From NCBI GenBank assembly GCA_030694985.1, contig JAUYTV010000045.1:1-64000 (forward strand): 64,000 nt of DNA. The letters run 5' to 3'. The DNA is from Methanoregula sp. (GTDB taxonomy: Archaea; Halobacteriota; Methanomicrobia; Methanomicrobiales; Methanospirillaceae). A program made the translations under genes and the position numbers. Of the stretch, positions 1 through 9,947 are shown piece after piece (position 1 is the stretch's first letter; each line of letters begins with the position of its first letter). Under the pieces are notes generated by a model. The model had not been told where the DNA came from. It was given only the letters and a program-made list of their open reading frames with translations, and did no database searches.

Positions 1-223
1 CTAACCTGATCCAAAGCGAGATCGTCTTGCCAATTGAGCCTAATTGCGCACATTTGACCTTCCGACGTTATTTTTTTGAATCCGGGCTCGCAGGAAAGAG
101 ATAAAAATGAATTTACATCCAATTGCCCTGAATTCCGCACATCTCCCGATCCCGGGTAAGACATACCCCGGATTGAAAACGCTAAAATGACCTCCATTTG
201 CCGAAAGGAGCCCGATTTAAAAT
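1..223. repeat. Direct repeat copy 1 (5' end may be cut by window edge)
   Basis: 'ctaacctgatccaaagcgagatcgtcttgccaattgagcctaattgcgcacatttgacc...' near-identical to 335-557, offset 334 bp, diverging after 'cccgattt'. Confidence 0.9.
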
Positions 224-334
224 ATCGCATCACTCCCGTAAGTCACATCCCCAAAAGAGTTTTGCCATCGACGTTGACCATCGGAACCCGGAGGGGGGAC
301 TCCCAAAACAGGGGTTCCTTTCGTTTTGCCTGCT

Positions 335-557
335 CTAACCTGATCCAAAGCGAGATCGTCTTGCCAATTGAGCCTAATTGCGCACATTTGACCCTCCGAC
401 GTTATTTTTTTGAATCCGGGCTCACATCGATGAGATAAAAATGAATTTACATCCATTTTCCCTGAATTCCGCACTTATCCCGATCCCAGGTAAGACATAC
501 TCCGGATTGAAAACGCTAAAATGACCTCCATTTGCTGAAAAGAGGCCGATTTGAAAG
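335..557. repeat. Direct repeat copy 2
   Basis: Near-identical to 1-223 with scattered substitutions. Confidence 0.9.
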
Positions 558-1504
558 ACGAGTTCCGGTCCCTTTTCGATACTCCTGAGAAATATCAGCA
601 CTGACGGAGACTACCCGGGAAAATGTGGAAATTTTGGGTTCATGAAGGGTTTGAAGGGTTCGTGGCGGGTTTGGCGGATTTATGTCGGGTCCTTGGGGGG
701 AAATAGTGAGGTCATGTGTTTTTTCATTAGACTGCTGACAAGCGCTGGTGGCTGCCCGTCAGATGATTTATACTGTACGTATATCTCTTAAGAAGACGGG
801 GAAGTTTATCGCCATAGACATTTCTTGGCAGTTTCATACAGCCATCAGTTCTTCTTTTAACCTGGTGCAGTCTGAGAAAACGGAGTCGATCCTTTGTTTT
901 GAAATGGCAGGATACTGCATCATGAACCATTTCATTGTGTTCTTTAAAACGTATCAGCTTGAGTGAATATCGACTACTGTAATGATCGTGGCTCGTAACC
1001 ACCTTACGGTGATTTTTCAATAATAAAAAAAATTACAGTGTCCTTGTATTTCGTCATTGATAATCCACATCTTTTCATACATATTCAATAGTTATGTTCA
1101 TCAACTTTTCAGTTGACAAAGAAATGTGTGCGGGGTAACTTAAAAAAATCTGGATGAATTCTGTGTCATTCCGGTACTCTGTGCTCCTTTGTTTGTAATG
1201 CGATTGTACACTCAAATTTAATTGATATTCTCATTGCAGTGCTTACTGTTGCTGTTTACTTTAGCTGATGAAAATGGCGGTCGTGAAACCGGTTTACCCA
1301 AAAACTTAAAGAGCCAATCGCGGATCCTGGCAGAATATAAGAAAACATGTCCAAAACTATCAAACACTTCGATTTTTAATTTACAAATCTGCCCGAATAC
1401 CAGATAACCGGCTCAATGCAGAAAAAATTTAATTTAAAACCAAAGAACGCTAAATAACAATATACATCTAATAAAATTACTACCGACATTTTACGGTGAA
1501 ACCA

Positions 1505-2182
1505 ATGAGTGACAACATTATCCTTCCCGACCAGCAGCCACTGGGTGCGGTGACTTTTGCAGAGAACCCGGAGCCGCGGTGCCCCTGTCTCTTATTGCTC
1601 GATACATCCGGATCGATGGCGGGACAACCCATTGCCGAACTCAATGCCGGGATCCGTGAATTTTACAATGAGTTGCAGACCGACTCGCTTGCAATCAAAC
1701 GTGTTGAGGTTGCCTTGCTCTCGTTTGGTCCGGTCAGACTCATCTCTGAGTTCAATACAGCAGAATGTTTCTTTGATCCAGAGCTCAAGGCTGACGGTGA
1801 CACACCTATGGGTGAAGCAATACAAAAAGGAATCGAACTCATAAAAACCCGAAAAGAACAATACCGGGCTAACGGCATCTCATTCTATCGGCCCTGGATC
1901 TTTCTTATCACTGATGGTGCACCAACTGATGCATGGCAGACTGCCGCTGCAATGGTCCGGGAAGGTGAGGATACAAAATCGTTTGCGTTCTTTGCTATCG
2001 GGGTCCACAAGGCAGACATGAAGATCTTAAAACAGATATCAGTACGGGATCCGGTAAAACTTCAGGGTTTGAAATTCCGCGAATTTTTCCAGTGGCTCTC
2101 AAACTCAATGAAATCAGCTTCGCGGAGCAATCCCGGTGACCGGATCATGCTCTCTCCACCTCTTGGCTGGAGTGAGATATGA
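1505..2182 (+). CDS. vWA domain protein, TerY/YegL-like
   Basis: MIDAS motif 'LLLLDTSGSMAGQPI', 'DGDTPMGEAI', 'LITDGAPTDAW'; ORF extends to GTG at 1496, ATG at 1505. Confidence 0.85.
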   Translation: MSDNIILPDQQPLGAVTFAENPEPRCPCLLLLDTSGSMAGQPIAELNAGIREFYNELQTDSLAIKRVEVALLSFGPVRLISEFNTAECFFDPELKADGDTPMGEAIQKGIELIKTRKEQYRANGISFYRPWIFLITDGAPTDAWQTAAAMVREGEDTKSFAFFAIGVHKADMKILKQISVRDPVKLQGLKFREFFQWLSNSMKSASRSNPGDRIMLSPPLGWSEI

Positions 2183-2943
2183 GATGGAAGTTTACTTGCA
2201 CATCTGTTACCGGAAAAGCACACACCGATCACGGAGAGAGCGGGCAGGATTTCTGCAGGGCTGGTACAATCCTGCTCTCGGATTCGGAATTTTTTATCGG
2301 GATTGCCGCTGATGGCGCTGGCAGCACAACGGACGGGGGGCGTGGGGCAGAAATTGCGAGTGGCACGCTTTATACCAAAATCATTGACGCAGTGCGAAAT
2401 ACTGGCGATTTATCGAGCATCACTGATGAGGATGTCAGGAACTGGATCACTGCGTCGCGCGAAGCGATCGTTGCTGATTCACAGGAAAGCAAGAAGCGGT
2501 TGAGAGAGTATGCCTGTACGATCCTCGGCTCGGTAGCCGGAAAAGATCGTGCGATTTTTTTCCAGATCGGTGATGGCGCTATCGTAACAGGTTCCGGTTC
2601 GGAGTACAATACAATTTTCTGGCCGGAACAGGGAGAATACGCCAACACTACGTTTTTTATCACGGATGAACAGTATCTCGATCATCTTAATGTACACCAT
2701 GCAGAATCACCAGACGAGATCGCGTTATTCACTGACGGCCTGCAAAACCTTGTCCTCTCGTTTGCGCAAAAAAAAGCCCATCCCGGTTTTTTTAAGCCGC
2801 TCTTTGAAGCTCTGAAAAAGAACCCGGTGGATGATTTCTCTGTTTTTTCTGCACAACTTAATCATTTTCTTTCCCGTGACGATATCACAGCGAGAAGCGA
2901 CGATGACAAAACACTCGTCCTTGCTCTGCGCATGACAGGTTGA
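2179..2943 (+). CDS. PP2C-family Ser/Thr phosphatase (YegK-like)
   Basis: 'GIAADGAGSTTDGGRGAEIAS', 'FFQIGDGAIV', 'ALFTDGLQNLVL'; 4-bp overlap with upstream vWA gene. Confidence 0.85.
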   Translation: MRWKFTCTSVTGKAHTDHGESGQDFCRAGTILLSDSEFFIGIAADGAGSTTDGGRGAEIASGTLYTKIIDAVRNTGDLSSITDEDVRNWITASREAIVADSQESKKRLREYACTILGSVAGKDRAIFFQIGDGAIVTGSGSEYNTIFWPEQGEYANTTFFITDEQYLDHLNVHHAESPDEIALFTDGLQNLVLSFAQKKAHPGFFKPLFEALKKNPVDDFSVFSAQLNHFLSRDDITARSDDDKTLVLALRMTG

Positions 2944-2947
2944 TTTT

Positions 2948-4966
2948 ATGGCGTCTGTTCCCCTCAAACCATTTTTAGATAGTTCCGGCACAAGGATCCT
3001 GCTCGGAAAAAAGATCGGGAGCGGAGGAGAAGGGGATGTGTATGAGATCCTTCCTCTGCACCAGAACCTTGTTGCCAAGATCTATCATAAACCGCTTGAA
3101 GCGCACAAGCAGGAGAAATTACTCTTAATGGTGAGAGGGTGCAATGACGAGCTCAAGAGCATTTCGGCATGGCCAACCGAGGTCCTCCGTGCCCGCGAAG
3201 GGGGTCCGGTTGTAGGCTTTCTCATGCCAAAAATCAGCGATTACGAACCGGTGCACAAAGTGTACGGGCCAACGCATCGGAAAGAACACTTCCCCCACGC
3301 GGACTGGCGGTTTCTGGTGCGCACAGCAAAAAACCTCGCAGCCGCATTTTTCGTAATTCACAAATTCGGGTACGTGATTGGCGATGTCAACGAGGGAAAC
3401 ATACTTGTCAACAATGAAGCCTGTGTCCGGCTGATCGACTGCGACTCGTTCCAGGTCCGGACAAACAAACGACTCTATTACTGTGAAGTTGGCGTAGCCC
3501 AGTTCACCCCGCCCGAGATCCAGAACTCGAAAAATTTTAAGATGGAGCGAACGGCAAACCATGACAATTTCGGGCTTTCTATCCTGTTTTTTCAGCTTCT
3601 CTTCTTTGGAAGGCATCCCTTCTCGGGCGTTTACGGTGGAAAAGAGGATATGCCGCTCGATAAGGCCATTGCCGAATTCCGGTTTGCATATGGTAAAAAT
3701 TCCCCGCTAAAATCCATCTCTCCTCCGCCAAACTCTGTGGGGCTTTCCGTTGTCCCCCATGATGTGGCCGGGCTTTTTGAGCGCGCTTTTTCTGAGACGG
3801 GAGCTAGTTATTCCGGCCGTCCCATTGCCGGGGACTGGTGGGACGCATTTGAATCCCTTGAAAAACGGATGAGACGGTGCAGTGCAGACTCCGTTCACAG
3901 TTACTATTCAGGACTTGCGACATGCCCGTGGTGCAGGCTCGAAGAAAGTTCCGGTCTCTTACTCTTCTTAAGCGCAGACCGGATCACAAAAATTGATCTC
4001 CATCGTGAGTGGCTGAAAGTAGAAGCAATCGCATCTCCGGGACCGATTCCACATATCAGCCTTGGAACATTCATCCCTCATCTTGCGCCGCTTGCTCCTG
4101 ATATTAAACGATCCCTTGACTTCAGGAGTTTCCGCCAGATTGCCGGCATAGCAATAATTGCAGGATGCGTGGTGATGGCACTGGGTGAGATGATAACTGA
4201 CTATCTCATGCTCCTGCCGGTTGTCATTGTTGTGATGGCACTGTTCCTGTATCCGGGCGAAGCTGCTGACGAGAAGAAAAAAAGATTGGGAAATCTTACC
4301 AGCGCCCGGTATATGTGGGATTTGTGGAACAAAAAGTGGATAGCCGAAGCGGGTGATTCAGCATTTATCACCCAGCTGAATCAGCTGCGGGATCTTAAGA
4401 GAAAATATGAAAGTATTGATCGGGAATACAGGACAAGCCTCCTCTCTTTAGAGAGAACGATGAAAGAGCGGCAGCTAAAAAAATTCCTTGAGCACTGCAG
4501 CATAAACACCTGTACATTACCACGGCTCAATACCGGACTGAAAAATATCTTAAAGTCTTTGGGGATCGAGACTGCTGCTGATATCACCCGGAATCAGTTA
4601 CTCGGCATTCCCCAGCTTGACAACACCCTCACTAACGAACTCATCGCATGGCGGGACAAAATGGAGAGGAATTTCCTCTTCGATCCTACACAAGGAATCG
4701 ATCGATCCGATCTCCAGACTCTAATCCATAAGTACCAGCCGATGATAAAACCCGTAGAGCGGGATCTTTTAACCGGGACTTTGAAGTTGCACAGGATTCA
4801 GGAAAATATCTTAAAGAAACGGATCACACTAAGGCCCGCTGTTGAAAAGCGGGCACGGGAACTCGCACAGGCAGAAGCGGATTTCGAAATTTTTTACCAT
4901 ACCCCGGAAGAATTGATCAAGCAGGAGATTGTCGGGATTTTTCATCCAGGAAAATATTCCCGGTAA
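2948..4966 (+). CDS. Ser/Thr kinase-like protein with TM segments and C-terminal helix-hairpin-helix (YegI/TerY-P kinase-like)
   Basis: Gly loop 'GSGGEGDVYEI', 'VAKIYHK', catalytic 'YVIGDVNEGNILV', 'RLIDCDSFQV'; hydrophobic segments about aa 400-440; HhH-like 'LKSLGIETAADITRNQLLGIPQL'. Confidence 0.85.
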   Translation: MASVPLKPFLDSSGTRILLGKKIGSGGEGDVYEILPLHQNLVAKIYHKPLEAHKQEKLLLMVRGCNDELKSISAWPTEVLRAREGGPVVGFLMPKISDYEPVHKVYGPTHRKEHFPHADWRFLVRTAKNLAAAFFVIHKFGYVIGDVNEGNILVNNEACVRLIDCDSFQVRTNKRLYYCEVGVAQFTPPEIQNSKNFKMERTANHDNFGLSILFFQLLFFGRHPFSGVYGGKEDMPLDKAIAEFRFAYGKNSPLKSISPPPNSVGLSVVPHDVAGLFERAFSETGASYSGRPIAGDWWDAFESLEKRMRRCSADSVHSYYSGLATCPWCRLEESSGLLLFLSADRITKIDLHREWLKVEAIASPGPIPHISLGTFIPHLAPLAPDIKRSLDFRSFRQIAGIAIIAGCVVMALGEMITDYLMLLPVVIVVMALFLYPGEAADEKKKRLGNLTSARYMWDLWNKKWIAEAGDSAFITQLNQLRDLKRKYESIDREYRTSLLSLERTMKERQLKKFLEHCSINTCTLPRLNTGLKNILKSLGIETAADITRNQLLGIPQLDNTLTNELIAWRDKMERNFLFDPTQGIDRSDLQTLIHKYQPMIKPVERDLLTGTLKLHRIQENILKKRITLRPAVEKRARELAQAEADFEIFYHTPEELIKQEIVGIFHPGKYSR

Positions 4967-5228: not shown

Positions 5229-6557
5229 ATGAAATACCAGGTTCTCTTCATCGCGGTTCTGCTTGTCATGGCCGCACTCATCGCCGGCTGTACCCAGCCG
5301 GCAGCTACGCAGCAGACAACGACGGCATCTCAAGGGATAATCAAAATCGGTGTTATCGTATCACAGACCGGCCCGGCAAGCAATGTGGGCAATAACATGT
5401 GGCAATCGGCCCAGGTTGCAGCCGATAAGATCAATGCTGCGGGTGGAGTAGCCTTAAAAGACGGAACAAACGCCCAGATCAAGCTGATCGTTGGGGATGA
5501 CGAATCCACACAAGCGGGTGGCCAGAAAGCGGCAACCAAGCTTATCACTGATGACAAAGTAGACATCCTTGTCGGAGGGTATTCCAGCGCAGTTACTTCC
5601 TCGTATCAGCAGACCATTGCGGAGTATAAGATACCTTACATCGTCACTGGCGCATCGAGCCCTATCATCACTCACCGTACCGACATCGATACAAGTTACA
5701 TCTTCCACCACTGCCCGACCACTGATACCTACGGCCAGTACACTACGACCTTCATAGATCAGGTTATCCGGTCAGCGATTACAAAGAAGTATGGTTTTGC
5801 CGCTGACCGCCCGCTCCGGCTCGCGCTCCTGTACCAGGATACCGCTTTTGGTAAGGGTGTTCAGACTGCAGTGAACAATACCATCACAAAGGAGAAGCTC
5901 AATATCCAGCTCGTCTCGCAGCAGAGTTTCAAAATGGGCGAGAGCGATTTCCGGACCCCGTTAACCGTAATCAAGGCGACAAACCCGGATGCAGTCTACA
6001 TAGCGGCATTCCCTAATGAAGGCGCTCCAATCATCACACAGGCACGCCGGGATATCGGACTGAATACGATATTTTTAAATGTAGAAAACAATGACAATGC
6101 CCAATTCTACAAAGACCTCGGTCAGTACGGAGATGGGGCTATTATCGAGAGCCGGTTCTCGCCCTATACTGCACCGGCCGGTGCAGTTGCAGATGCCCAG
6201 AACGCATTTAAGCAGGCATACTTTACACGGTTTGGCACATACCCGGACATGATGGGTGCGTCTACCTATGAGGGAGTGTACATTGCTGCAAAAGCTATCG
6301 GGAATGCGGGAACCACCGATAAGGCAACTGTCAGGCTGGCACTCGTAAACCTGAAGATGCCACAAGTCATCGAGGCAATGAAGGACCAGACCATCTCGTT
6401 CTCACCGGACTTCCGGGAATCAACCTTTGACCTCTGGATGGAACAGCTATCGTTCAACCAGACCCTTGGTGAGACACGACCCACAATCGTCTGGCCGGAC
6501 AACCTCAAGACAACGGACTTTACCCTGCCTTCCTGGTACAAAGCCGGAAGCGCTTGA
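5229..6557 (+). CDS. ABC transporter substrate-binding lipoprotein, branched-chain amino acid/amide family
   Basis: Lipobox 'LIAGCTQ', 'IKIGVIVSQTGPASNVG' type I periplasmic binding fold; followed by LivHM. Confidence 0.9.
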   Translation: MKYQVLFIAVLLVMAALIAGCTQPAATQQTTTASQGIIKIGVIVSQTGPASNVGNNMWQSAQVAADKINAAGGVALKDGTNAQIKLIVGDDESTQAGGQKAATKLITDDKVDILVGGYSSAVTSSYQQTIAEYKIPYIVTGASSPIITHRTDIDTSYIFHHCPTTDTYGQYTTTFIDQVIRSAITKKYGFAADRPLRLALLYQDTAFGKGVQTAVNNTITKEKLNIQLVSQQSFKMGESDFRTPLTVIKATNPDAVYIAAFPNEGAPIITQARRDIGLNTIFLNVENNDNAQFYKDLGQYGDGAIIESRFSPYTAPAGAVADAQNAFKQAYFTRFGTYPDMMGASTYEGVYIAAKAIGNAGTTDKATVRLALVNLKMPQVIEAMKDQTISFSPDFRESTFDLWMEQLSFNQTLGETRPTIVWPDNLKTTDFTLPSWYKAGSA

Positions 6558-6614
6558 AATCCGATACACTCCATTTTTATTACAGGCAGTATGATTTTAA
6601 GACAATAAAAAAAC

Positions 6615-7505
6615 ATGCGGGTGACAATGGACGACATTGGGATATTTTTACAGATCCTGTTCTGGGGACTGTATGCCGGCTGTATCTATATCCTGCTTGC
6701 CACCGGCCTTAACCTTATCTTTGGGGTCATGAAGATCGTAAACTTCGCGCACGGGGAGTTCCTGATGATCGGTGCTTACATCACCGCCACGATCTTTCTT
6801 TTAACCGGCATCAATCCCTATGTAATCCTTTTATTGTCCATGCTCGCCCTCATCGGAATCGGGGCAGTTGTCGAACGGCTTTGTTTCCGTCCGATCCTCG
6901 GCACCGGCAAACTCAACGAGATCTTCCTCTCCATCGGGCTCATCTATGTCTTTCAGAACGGGGCTGCAATGGTATGGGGTGATGCATGGCAAAGCGTAAA
7001 GAGCCCCTATGATGGTATCACAGTTCCTGTAGGTTCACTCAACGTCCCCATCGACTACATCATCATCATTGCGTTTACTGCTGCTATCCTCATTGCCCTG
7101 TTCATCTTCCTCAAAAAAACGAGGATTGGCATGGAGATGCGGGCAACAAGCCAGAACCGGAAAGGGGCTATGCTCATTGGTATCAATGTCGAACGGATAG
7201 ACGTCATCAGCTTTGGTATCGGATGCGCACTTGCGGCTGCTGCAGGGACGCTCTGGGTGGTGAGCGGACAGGTCTTTAACCCGTATATGGGATCGATTCC
7301 TGCAGTCAAGGCCTTTGCTATCATTATTCTCGGCGGGCTTGGCAGTATTCCGGGCGCTATCATTGGCGGGCTCTTAATGGGTATTGCCGAGAACAGCGCG
7401 GCATTCTATCTCGGCGGGGTATGGAAAGACGCGGTCTCGTTTATTATCCTCATTGTTGTACTCGTAGTACGGCCAACCGGATTATTCGGGGAGAAGGGGG
7501 AGTGA
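6615..7505 (+). CDS. Branched-chain amino acid ABC permease (LivH-like)
   Basis: 'LATGLNLIFGVMKIVNFAHGEFLMIGAY' signature. Confidence 0.92.
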   Translation: MRVTMDDIGIFLQILFWGLYAGCIYILLATGLNLIFGVMKIVNFAHGEFLMIGAYITATIFLLTGINPYVILLLSMLALIGIGAVVERLCFRPILGTGKLNEIFLSIGLIYVFQNGAAMVWGDAWQSVKSPYDGITVPVGSLNVPIDYIIIIAFTAAILIALFIFLKKTRIGMEMRATSQNRKGAMLIGINVERIDVISFGIGCALAAAAGTLWVVSGQVFNPYMGSIPAVKAFAIIILGGLGSIPGAIIGGLLMGIAENSAAFYLGGVWKDAVSFIILIVVLVVRPTGLFGEKGE

Positions 7506-7509
7506 AAAT

Positions 7510-8499
7510 TTGAATTTCGGACGGGATAAACTGATAAAATACGGACTCGTTGCAACACTCGCCATTGCAGCAGCTTTCCCGTTCCTGTCTGACAGCATGT
7601 TCCTTTTGAACCTCCTTGTCCTGATGCTTATCTCCATCATCTTTGCATCGGCATGGAACCTTCTCGCATTCTCCGGGCAGGGTTCGCTCGGTCACGCCGC
7701 ATTCCTTGGAATTGGCGCATATGCTTCCACCCTGATTGCGATTCAGAGCGGGATTTCGCCGTTCATTACTATCTTTCTCGGGGCCACTGTTGCCGCGTTC
7801 ATAGGTGTCCTCATCGGGCTTACCTGCGTCCGGCTCAAAGAGTGGTTCCTTGCGATGGTGACATTCGGGTTTGCAATCATCGTCCAGGCACTGACTGTCA
7901 GCGTACTCGCCCCGATGACGGGGGGCTGGGATGGGATCGCATCGCCCCGGCTTGTAAGCCCGTCCATACCCGGATACCAGCTCATCGAATACTACGCAAT
8001 CCTTGTCATTACCATTGCATCTTTAATCGCAATCTGGTATATTATGAAGTCCCGTCTCGGGCTTGCATTCCTCGCGATCCGGGAGAACGAGTTAGAAGCC
8101 CGTGCTTCCGGAGTGGATCCTGTCCGATACCGGCTCATCGCATTTGCCATGAGTGCATACCTTGCCGGAGTTGCCGGGGCTTTGCAAATCCATCATATCG
8201 GTTACATTACACCGGAATTGTATGGTGTTGACAATTCGTTCTGGCCAATTACCTTTGTAATTCTTGGCGGTCTAGGCACCCTTGCAGGGCCGGTTATCGG
8301 GACGATTGTTCTTACCATCATCTGGGAGGGGTTAAAGGCAACCGGGCTCACTTTCGGGAGATACGTAATTGTCGGGTTCATTCTTATCCTCACGATCATC
8401 TTCCTCCCAAAGGGGCTTGTGAATTTGCCGGAACGGTTGCAGGTATGGTGGAGGGGACGTGGAAGGAAAGAGACTTTTGTGGAGCCTCAAAGGGAATAA
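7510..8499 (+). CDS. Branched-chain amino acid ABC permease (LivM-like)
   Basis: 'WNLLAFSGQGSLGHAAFLGIGAY'. Confidence 0.92.
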   Translation: MNFGRDKLIKYGLVATLAIAAAFPFLSDSMFLLNLLVLMLISIIFASAWNLLAFSGQGSLGHAAFLGIGAYASTLIAIQSGISPFITIFLGATVAAFIGVLIGLTCVRLKEWFLAMVTFGFAIIVQALTVSVLAPMTGGWDGIASPRLVSPSIPGYQLIEYYAILVITIASLIAIWYIMKSRLGLAFLAIRENELEARASGVDPVRYRLIAFAMSAYLAGVAGALQIHHIGYITPELYGVDNSFWPITFVILGGLGTLAGPVIGTIVLTIIWEGLKATGLTFGRYVIVGFILILTIIFLPKGLVNLPERLQVWWRGRGRKETFVEPQRE

Positions 8500-8515
8500 A
8501 CACTGACTTGCGTCT

Positions 8516-9211
8516 TTAGAATCCGAGGTACGCCTTCTGGATGTGCGGATCGCGCTTGAGCTCCTTTGCCTTTCCCTCTTTAATTATCCTCCCGTTCTCA
8601 AGCACATACCCCCGGTGACACATATCGAGCGCGTGCCTGACGTTCTGCTCAAGCAGAAAAATTGTCATCCCTTCCCTGCCAAGCTGTTCGAGTGACCTGA
8701 AAACCTGTCCAACAAGAATGGGCGAGAGACCGGTTGAAGGTTCATCAAGGATTAGGAGCCGGGGTCGTGACATCAGTGCCCGGCCGATAGCAAGCATCTG
8801 CTGCTCACCGCCACTAAGCGTTCCGGCCATCTGGTTTTTTCGCTCCTGCAGGATTGGGAATAACTGGAAAATATGTGCAAGGGTCTTTTCTGTTTCATCT
8901 TGTCCAATCCTTCCAAGAAGGAGGTTCTCTTTGACCGGCATCTTAGAGAAGATCTCGCGTTTCTCCGGAACGAGTGCGAGCCCTTTTTTAAATAGATCGT
9001 AAGGGGTATGACCGAGGATATCTTCTCCTTCAAATACAATTGAGCCCGAGGCTTTCCGGTTAAGCCCTATGATGGTCTCGACTGTCGTTGTCTTGCCGGC
9101 ACCATTTGGTCCGATCAGAGTCACAAGTTCGCCTTTCTTAACGTGAAAACTCAGGTCCCAGACGACCTGCAGGTTCCCGTGAAAAACATTGAGGTCGGTC
9201 ACTGCGAGCAT
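8516..9211 (-). CDS. ABC ATP-binding protein (LivF-like)
   Basis: Walker A 'GPNGAGKTTTVETI', 'LSGGEQQMLAIGRALMSRPRLLILDEPSTGLSP'. Confidence 0.92.
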   Translation of the reverse strand: MLAVTDLNVFHGNLQVVWDLSFHVKKGELVTLIGPNGAGKTTTVETIIGLNRKASGSIVFEGEDILGHTPYDLFKKGLALVPEKREIFSKMPVKENLLLGRIGQDETEKTLAHIFQLFPILQERKNQMAGTLSGGEQQMLAIGRALMSRPRLLILDEPSTGLSPILVGQVFRSLEQLGREGMTIFLLEQNVRHALDMCHRGYVLENGRIIKEGKAKELKRDPHIQKAYLGF

Positions 9212-9230
9212 GTTTTTTCCCTTTTTTTAG

Positions 9231-9947
9231 TTAAAACGCGTTGAAGTCACCAAGATATGTATCAATGACCTGCTGGTTATTCACAACCTCGTACGGTCGG
9301 CCGTCGGCGATCTTCTCGCCATGATCGAGTACTACGATGCGGTCAGAAACTCCCATAATGACACTCATGACGTGCTCGATAATAAGAATGGAAATTCCCT
9401 TGTTACGGATCTTCCGGATCAACTCCACGGCCTCTTTGCTCTCTTTTGGGTTGAGACCGGTGGTGAGTTCGTCAAGCAGCAGGAGTTTCGGGCGTGAAGC
9501 GAGCGCCCGGGCGAGCTGCAGTCGCTTGAGCTCAACGACATTTAAGTTACGGTTGAGGGTTTCGGCCTTCTCAAGGGGAAAGTTGACCTCATCAAGTATC
9601 AAAAGCGCCTGGGACTGTGCCTCTTTCATACCCGGCGCCGTGTCATTTCCAAAGAGCACCCCAATCATCACGCACTCTTTGGCGGTTAAGTCGGGAAATG
9701 ATTCAGCGATCTGAAACGTCTTTGCGATTCCCTTCCGGCATATCCGATCCGGTTTCATACCTGTAATGTCTTCACCACAGAATGATACCTTCCCGGATGT
9801 TGGAGGAGTGATACCGGATATAATGTTTAAGAGAGTTGTCTTTCCGGCACCGTTTGGTCCCACAAGACCTACGATCTGATCGTTTCCAATCTCAAGGTCT
9901 ACATTGTTCACTGCGGTTAGGCCACCGATCTGTTTGGTCACAGCCAA
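9231..9947 (-). CDS. ABC ATP-binding protein (LivG-like)
   Basis: 'GPNGAGKTTLLNIISG', 'LARALASRPKLLLLDELTTGLNP'. Confidence 0.9.
   Translation of the reverse strand: MAVTKQIGGLTAVNNVDLEIGNDQIVGLVGPNGAGKTTLLNIISGITPPTSGKVSFCGEDITGMKPDRICRKGIAKTFQIAESFPDLTAKECVMIGVLFGNDTAPGMKEAQSQALLILDEVNFPLEKAETLNRNLNVVELKRLQLARALASRPKLLLLDELTTGLNPKESKEAVELIRKIRNKGISILIIEHVMSVIMGVSDRIVVLDHGEKIADGRPYEVVNNQQVIDTYLGDFNAF

Follow-up and report, generated by a model that had tools for sequence, protein, structure and literature searches.

Finding genes for a vWA protein, a PP2C phosphatase and a membrane kinase side by side in a methanogen raises the question of which known family such a triad belongs to, and whether it serves as a signalling switch or, as had been proposed from the DNA sequence, as a stress or antiviral system. 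We addressed this question for the locus at positions 1505-4966 of the window, the 64,000-nucleotide stretch of Methanoregula sp. DNA that forms the start of a 66-kb contig in a 2.49-Mb assembly (96% complete).

Gene organization and upstream region

ORF reading agreed with the original prediction of three tightly coupled genes: all three are intact and co-directional (+ strand), in the order vWA, PP2C, kinase, with a 4-bp overlap between the first two and a 4-bp gap before the third. The first gene (1505..2182, +) encodes a YegL-like vWA protein of 225 aa (Pfam VWA, 1.6e-9) and has a second possible start at an in-frame GTG at 1496; the second (2179..2943, +) encodes a PphC/YegK-like PP2C phosphatase of 254 aa (Pfam PP2C_2, 2e-42); and the third (2948..4966, +) encodes a YegI-like membrane Ser/Thr kinase of 672 aa, whose kinase domain gives a weak Pfam Pkinase match (7.9e-8) just above the cut-off. 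The grouping is more than chance because relatives with a complete locus keep the three genes in one order, the vWA protein being tied to the phosphatase and the kinase by gene order and co-occurrence only.

Upstream of the triad lie the BRE/TATA-like block GAAAAAATTTAATTTAAAAC (1421..1440, +), a likely archaeal promoter, and the leader TACCGACATTTTACGGTGAA with its GGTGA ribosome site (1481..1500, +). Both the block and the 20-nt leader are kept among close relatives, whereas the DNA beyond them is not; the block is retained with small changes in seven of eight close genomes, G004 having diverged there. The leader motif has a single site in the whole assembly, and on this ground we rejected a genome-wide regulon. 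A leader RNA hairpin with 5 invariant pairs showed zero covariation and thus gained no support as a structure, and an Rfam search of the window matched no family. Just upstream of the triad, window positions 1-556 hold tandemly repeated units of ~333 nt, the copies being ~88-94% identical; this repeat recurs at ~14 places in the host assembly (G000), several of them at contig ends, with contigs C13, C15, C21, C25, C36 and C55 among the contigs concerned.

Relationship to the E. coli yegL-pphC-yegI genes

Full-length similarity, shared gene order and tree grouping all bear out the proposed likeness to E. coli yegLKI. In tblastn searches against E. coli MG1655, the vWA protein was 58.6% identical to YegL, the phosphatase 32.8% identical to PphC (YegK) and the kinase 35.3% identical to YegI over residues 12-646, the matches spanning 94-98% of the length of the three proteins. 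The order of yegL-pphC-yegI is identical to that of the archaeal locus, and the two have in common the two-helix membrane hairpin of the kinase, a zinc-type motif and the active sites. They differ in that the archaeal copies are without the HhH hairpin glycines, without yegJ between the genes and without the adjoining yegD chaperone gene, and in that the archaeal locus has an archaeal promoter. A link to chaperones, for which yegD of E. coli and the J-domain gene seen in Cupriavidus would speak, was discarded, such genes being absent beside the archaeal copies. From these sequence comparisons, the identification of the locus as an archaeal YegL-PphC-YegI triad is well supported. To our knowledge, no function has been assigned to the triad of E. 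coli. As summarised in PMC13232886, the membrane Ser/Thr kinase YegI of E. coli undergoes autophosphorylation and PphC dephosphorylates it, and that summary gives no established inducing condition for yegI-pphC.

Active sites and domain features

Protein alignments that included the E. coli triad and five bacterial triads from plasmids showed that the active sites of all three proteins are intact. The MIDAS of the vWA protein (D33-x-S35-x-S37...T100...D137), read as intact in the original prediction, is invariant in the aligned archaeal and bacterial members, and the assignment of the second protein as a PP2C phosphatase likewise held, its metal-ligand aspartates (D45, D132, D186 and D242) being invariant. 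Near the C-terminus of the vWA protein, at residues 199-208 (window 2099-2128), the serines of a WLS-x-S...S-x-S stretch are invariant in every aligned YegL-type vWA, archaeal and bacterial, and are candidate phosphosites or a candidate structural element.

The kinase domain covers residues about 11-300 (2978..3847, +) and contains the GSGGEG loop, K44, the GDVNEGN site, DCDS and TPPE. The GDVNEGN sequence had been singled out as the HRD-like site and is present exactly as described; Lys44, Asp146 and Asp164 are invariant, as are GxGGEG, GDVN, TPPE and N..DNFG throughout the kinase alignment. An AF2 model of the kinase (mean pLDDT 79) had PknB as its best PDB match (E 8e-8), followed by many eukaryotic kinases. 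After the kinase domain comes a C-x5-H-x8-CPWC zinc-type motif (C311, H317, C326 and C329; 3878..3934, +), in which the three cysteines are invariant among YegI-type kinases and the type-B kinases described below, and H317 is missing from one kinase only. The predicted membrane location is matched by a two-helix hairpin at residues 393-434 (4124..4249, +), with hydrophobic helices at residues 393-412 and 422-434 in both the hydropathy profile and the AF2 model, the confidence of the model being low there.

Beyond the hairpin, modelling of the C-terminal part gives a long coiled coil whose tip is short, helical and HhH-like. The tip corresponds to a degenerate HhH region at residues 518-570 (4499..4657, +), located by alignment with bacterial IPGIGP...PGFG hairpins. 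The C-terminal HhH of the original prediction therefore stands as to position, which matches that of the HhH in E. coli YegI (HHH_5, E 9e-4, itself under that model's cut-off), but not as to sequence: no Pfam HhH model matched the window kinase and the hairpin glycines are replaced. Hairpins approximating PGIGP and PGFG occur in nearly all of 10 bacterial YegI sequences; none of the 24 archaeal sequences keeps the first hairpin unaltered (PRLNT and similar stand in its place), and their second usually reads QLD, ELD or LLD. Because the hairpin glycines have been lost, canonical HhH DNA binding by the tip of the archaeal kinases appears doubtful. A PDB fold search with the C-terminal part returned nothing significant, with a RAD51 filament structure at E 1.6. 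Two proviral YegI-type kinases, on contigs L081 (9200-9574) and L082, end in what was judged by eye to be a topoisomerase-type C4 zinc finger, and for this reason nucleic-acid contact may persist as a theme of the YegI-type kinase family.

Comparison with TerY-P and other triads

TerY-P triads likewise place a vWA protein, a PP2C phosphatase and a Ser/Thr kinase in one operon, and the original prediction had taken the locus for TerY-P architecture. Membership in the TerY-P family proper is favoured by the three enzyme types and order held in common and by a weak PADLOC similarity. The profiles barely match, however: the PADLOC TerY model gave a partial match to the window vWA protein at E 0.029, the STK_OB match (E 0.0011) was confined to a short part of the kinase domain, and the E. 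coli Yeg proteins scored no better on these models. Two forms of TerY-P kinase have been described (PMC11090510), one ending in a zinc ribbon and the other, an antiphage variant, having an OB fold, whereas the C-terminus of the window kinase, consisting of membrane hairpin, coiled coil and HhH-like region, has neither. The present triad thus stands apart from the zinc-ribbon form, and from the antiphage form with an OB fold (Gao et al. 2020), in its PADLOC profiles, in its sequence group and in the C-terminus of its kinase. In addition, neither TerC nor TerD genes were found in the host assembly (96% complete), which extends the predicted stand-alone character of the locus to the whole assembly and led us to reject a Ter tellurite/stress association. 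Taken with the tree, in which the zinc-ribbon triads of sister genomes form a distant, separate group, these differences make membership in TerY-P proper highly improbable.

The zinc-ribbon TerY-P-like triads of the sister genomes are on contigs L065 (2759-6547), L066 (7112-10902) and L067; in L065 and L066 a gene for a repeat protein, of the HEAT kind in L065, comes after the triad. Several genus members (e.g., G011 and G033) have both such a triad and YegLKI; no zinc-ribbon triad was found in the host assembly, where the YegI-like kinase is the only PF00069 match over the cut-off. A third kind of triad, for which we coined the label type-B, occurs in a neighbouring family (G036, G041, G046, G056 and G159; contigs L058-L061 and L128). 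Type-B triads resemble the window triad in their vWA protein (45-47% identical), their PP2C and a kinase with DCDSFQ and CHCC motifs, but the tail of the type-B kinase is BACON/Ig-like, without membrane hairpin plus HhH, and in three genomes a small secreted-looking protein adjoins the kinase.

Distribution, selection and origin

A search of the class found a full-length-type YegI kinase in 26 of the 39 genus genomes and in a single genome (G171) of another genus in the same family, and none of full length was found outside the genus in a 394-genome sample of the phylum. Among the 23 genus genomes that are at least 90% complete, the kinase locus is present in 17, decayed in one (G015, with internal stops, a vWA fragment and no PP2C found) and absent from five (G001, G018, G022, G026 and G193); a vWA search of these five, run without a positive control, found nothing. 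Gene order within the triad is constant in the genus, but the genes on either side belong to several unrelated sets. Thus, rather than a housekeeping locus kept in synteny by every relative, which would have spoken against the original prediction, we found patchy presence and differing neighbourhoods.

All three genes are under strong purifying selection. In comparisons with five relatives (NG86), dN/dS was 0.016-0.058 for the vWA gene, 0.098-0.128 for PP2C and 0.079-0.116 for the kinase, figures that are rough because dS was above 1, and close to saturation, in several of the comparisons. Such constraint, together with the triad's own promoter and the ordinary and transport genes nearby, would suit a housekeeping signalling locus on which these methanogens depend for metal or envelope balance. 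We nevertheless regard that explanation as very unlikely, given that 5 of 23 good genus genomes are without the locus, 1 of 23 has a decayed copy and the neighbourhoods differ.

In a concatenated tree, the archaeal triads join those of E. coli, Pseudomonas and Cupriavidus (beta/gamma-proteobacterial) with a support of 100, the archaeal group itself being supported at 81. This position suggests acquisition from bacteria: the triad was probably acquired by an ancestor of the Methanoregula-like genus and then partly lost, the direction of transfer being what we infer from the tree. Triad and rpoB trees agree in their shallow clades and conflict for G010 and G004. The conflict, which may reflect transfer or mis-binned contigs, led us to reject strict vertical descent.

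Genomic context and the question of defence

Around the archaeal triads lie genes for transporters, methyltransferases, signalling proteins, an RNase and a protease. In the rest of the window, the proteins checked were of kinds such as antiporter, P-type ATPase and universal stress protein. No recurrent defence module was detected by Pfam and PADLOC among 134 neighbours of archaeal triads: the commonest PADLOC families (among the best 25 of 122) matched at most 5 of the 134, and rarer hits included, for example, DNA methylase and RecQ-type helicase matches in 2 members. PADLOC did not recognise the triad itself as a defence system.

Bacterial relatives are found on mobile elements. They occur on plasmids, 47 of 82 predicted to be conjugative, with YegLKI triads among the conjugative ones, and four full-length triads were present among 2.9 million viral contigs (L079, L080, L081 and L082); no full-length relative was found in INPHARED phages. 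On L079 (IMGVR_UViG_3300045454_000139), a complete bacterial YegLKI triad (5989-9363) lies downstream of a primase and between the terminase large subunit and a lambda-family portal, apparently as cargo in a late phage operon. An integrase is near the triad in L080 and L081, and a terminase accompanies that of L082. Carriage in proviruses is typical of defence cargo, but is not specific to it.

The defence role put forward in the original prediction is thus compatible with the patchy locus and with the plasmid-borne and proviral bacterial relatives, and gains no support from the archaeal surroundings. In a TerY-P-like antiviral system, the kinase or the vWA protein would sense infection and a change in phosphorylation would stop the virus or the cell. 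The precedent lies in OB-fold-kinase triads of the same enzyme types, which are stand-alone antiphage systems (PMC11090510) and act against T7-like phages (PMC7699616); patchiness within the genus, with one copy decayed, conjugative plasmids and the proviral contigs L079-L082 point in the same direction. Set against these are the want of consistent defence-gene neighbours around the archaeal copies, the blindness of PADLOC to the triad, strong purifying selection without gene-level signs of an arms race, and the fact that the literature searched yielded no defence phenotype for E. coli yegLKI. On balance, we consider an antiviral function unlikely. A broader version, in which YegLKI would be a mobile phosphorylation-based antiviral family of bacterial proviruses and plasmids, captured on the Methanoregula chromosome with the nucleic-acid-binding tip of the kinase rebuilt for another signal, strikes us as quite unlikely; if true, it would mean a so far unrecognised antiviral family.

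Proposed function

The reading that we prefer, at a probability of roughly 0.7, is that of an archaeal YegL-PphC-YegI operon of bacterial origin forming a membrane-tethered, reversible phosphorylation switch, in which the vWA protein is an adaptor or substrate; the best reading of its use is accessory rather than essential. The YegI-like kinase would be held at the inner face of the membrane by its two-helix hairpin, with almost nothing extracellular, and would autophosphorylate and phosphorylate partners, the PP2C phosphatase resetting it. The vWA protein, by far the most conserved part, would act through its metal site as an adaptor or substrate of the kinase/PP2C pair, and the coiled coil with its HhH-like tip would serve in dimerisation or in contact with other proteins, and not in DNA binding of the classical kind. 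The proposed kinase-phosphatase pairing and the role suggested for the vWA protein draw on analogy with E. coli and with the Sulfolobus ArnA-ArnB-ArnC system. There, ArnC phosphorylates the vWA protein ArnB and alters its binding (PMC12852372, PMC6509490), which provides a precedent of mechanism, with a Ser/Thr kinase controlling a vWA protein in an archaeon. The Arn system has an FHA partner, another gene set and another kinase, and the comparison does not imply relatedness to the triad.

A stand-alone archaeal copy of like anatomy, lost or relocated within one genus, and the proviral bacterial copies together characterise the three genes as one transferable unit, and they make concrete the questions of whether the vWA protein is a substrate, what role the HhH tip plays and whether the triad protects against viruses.
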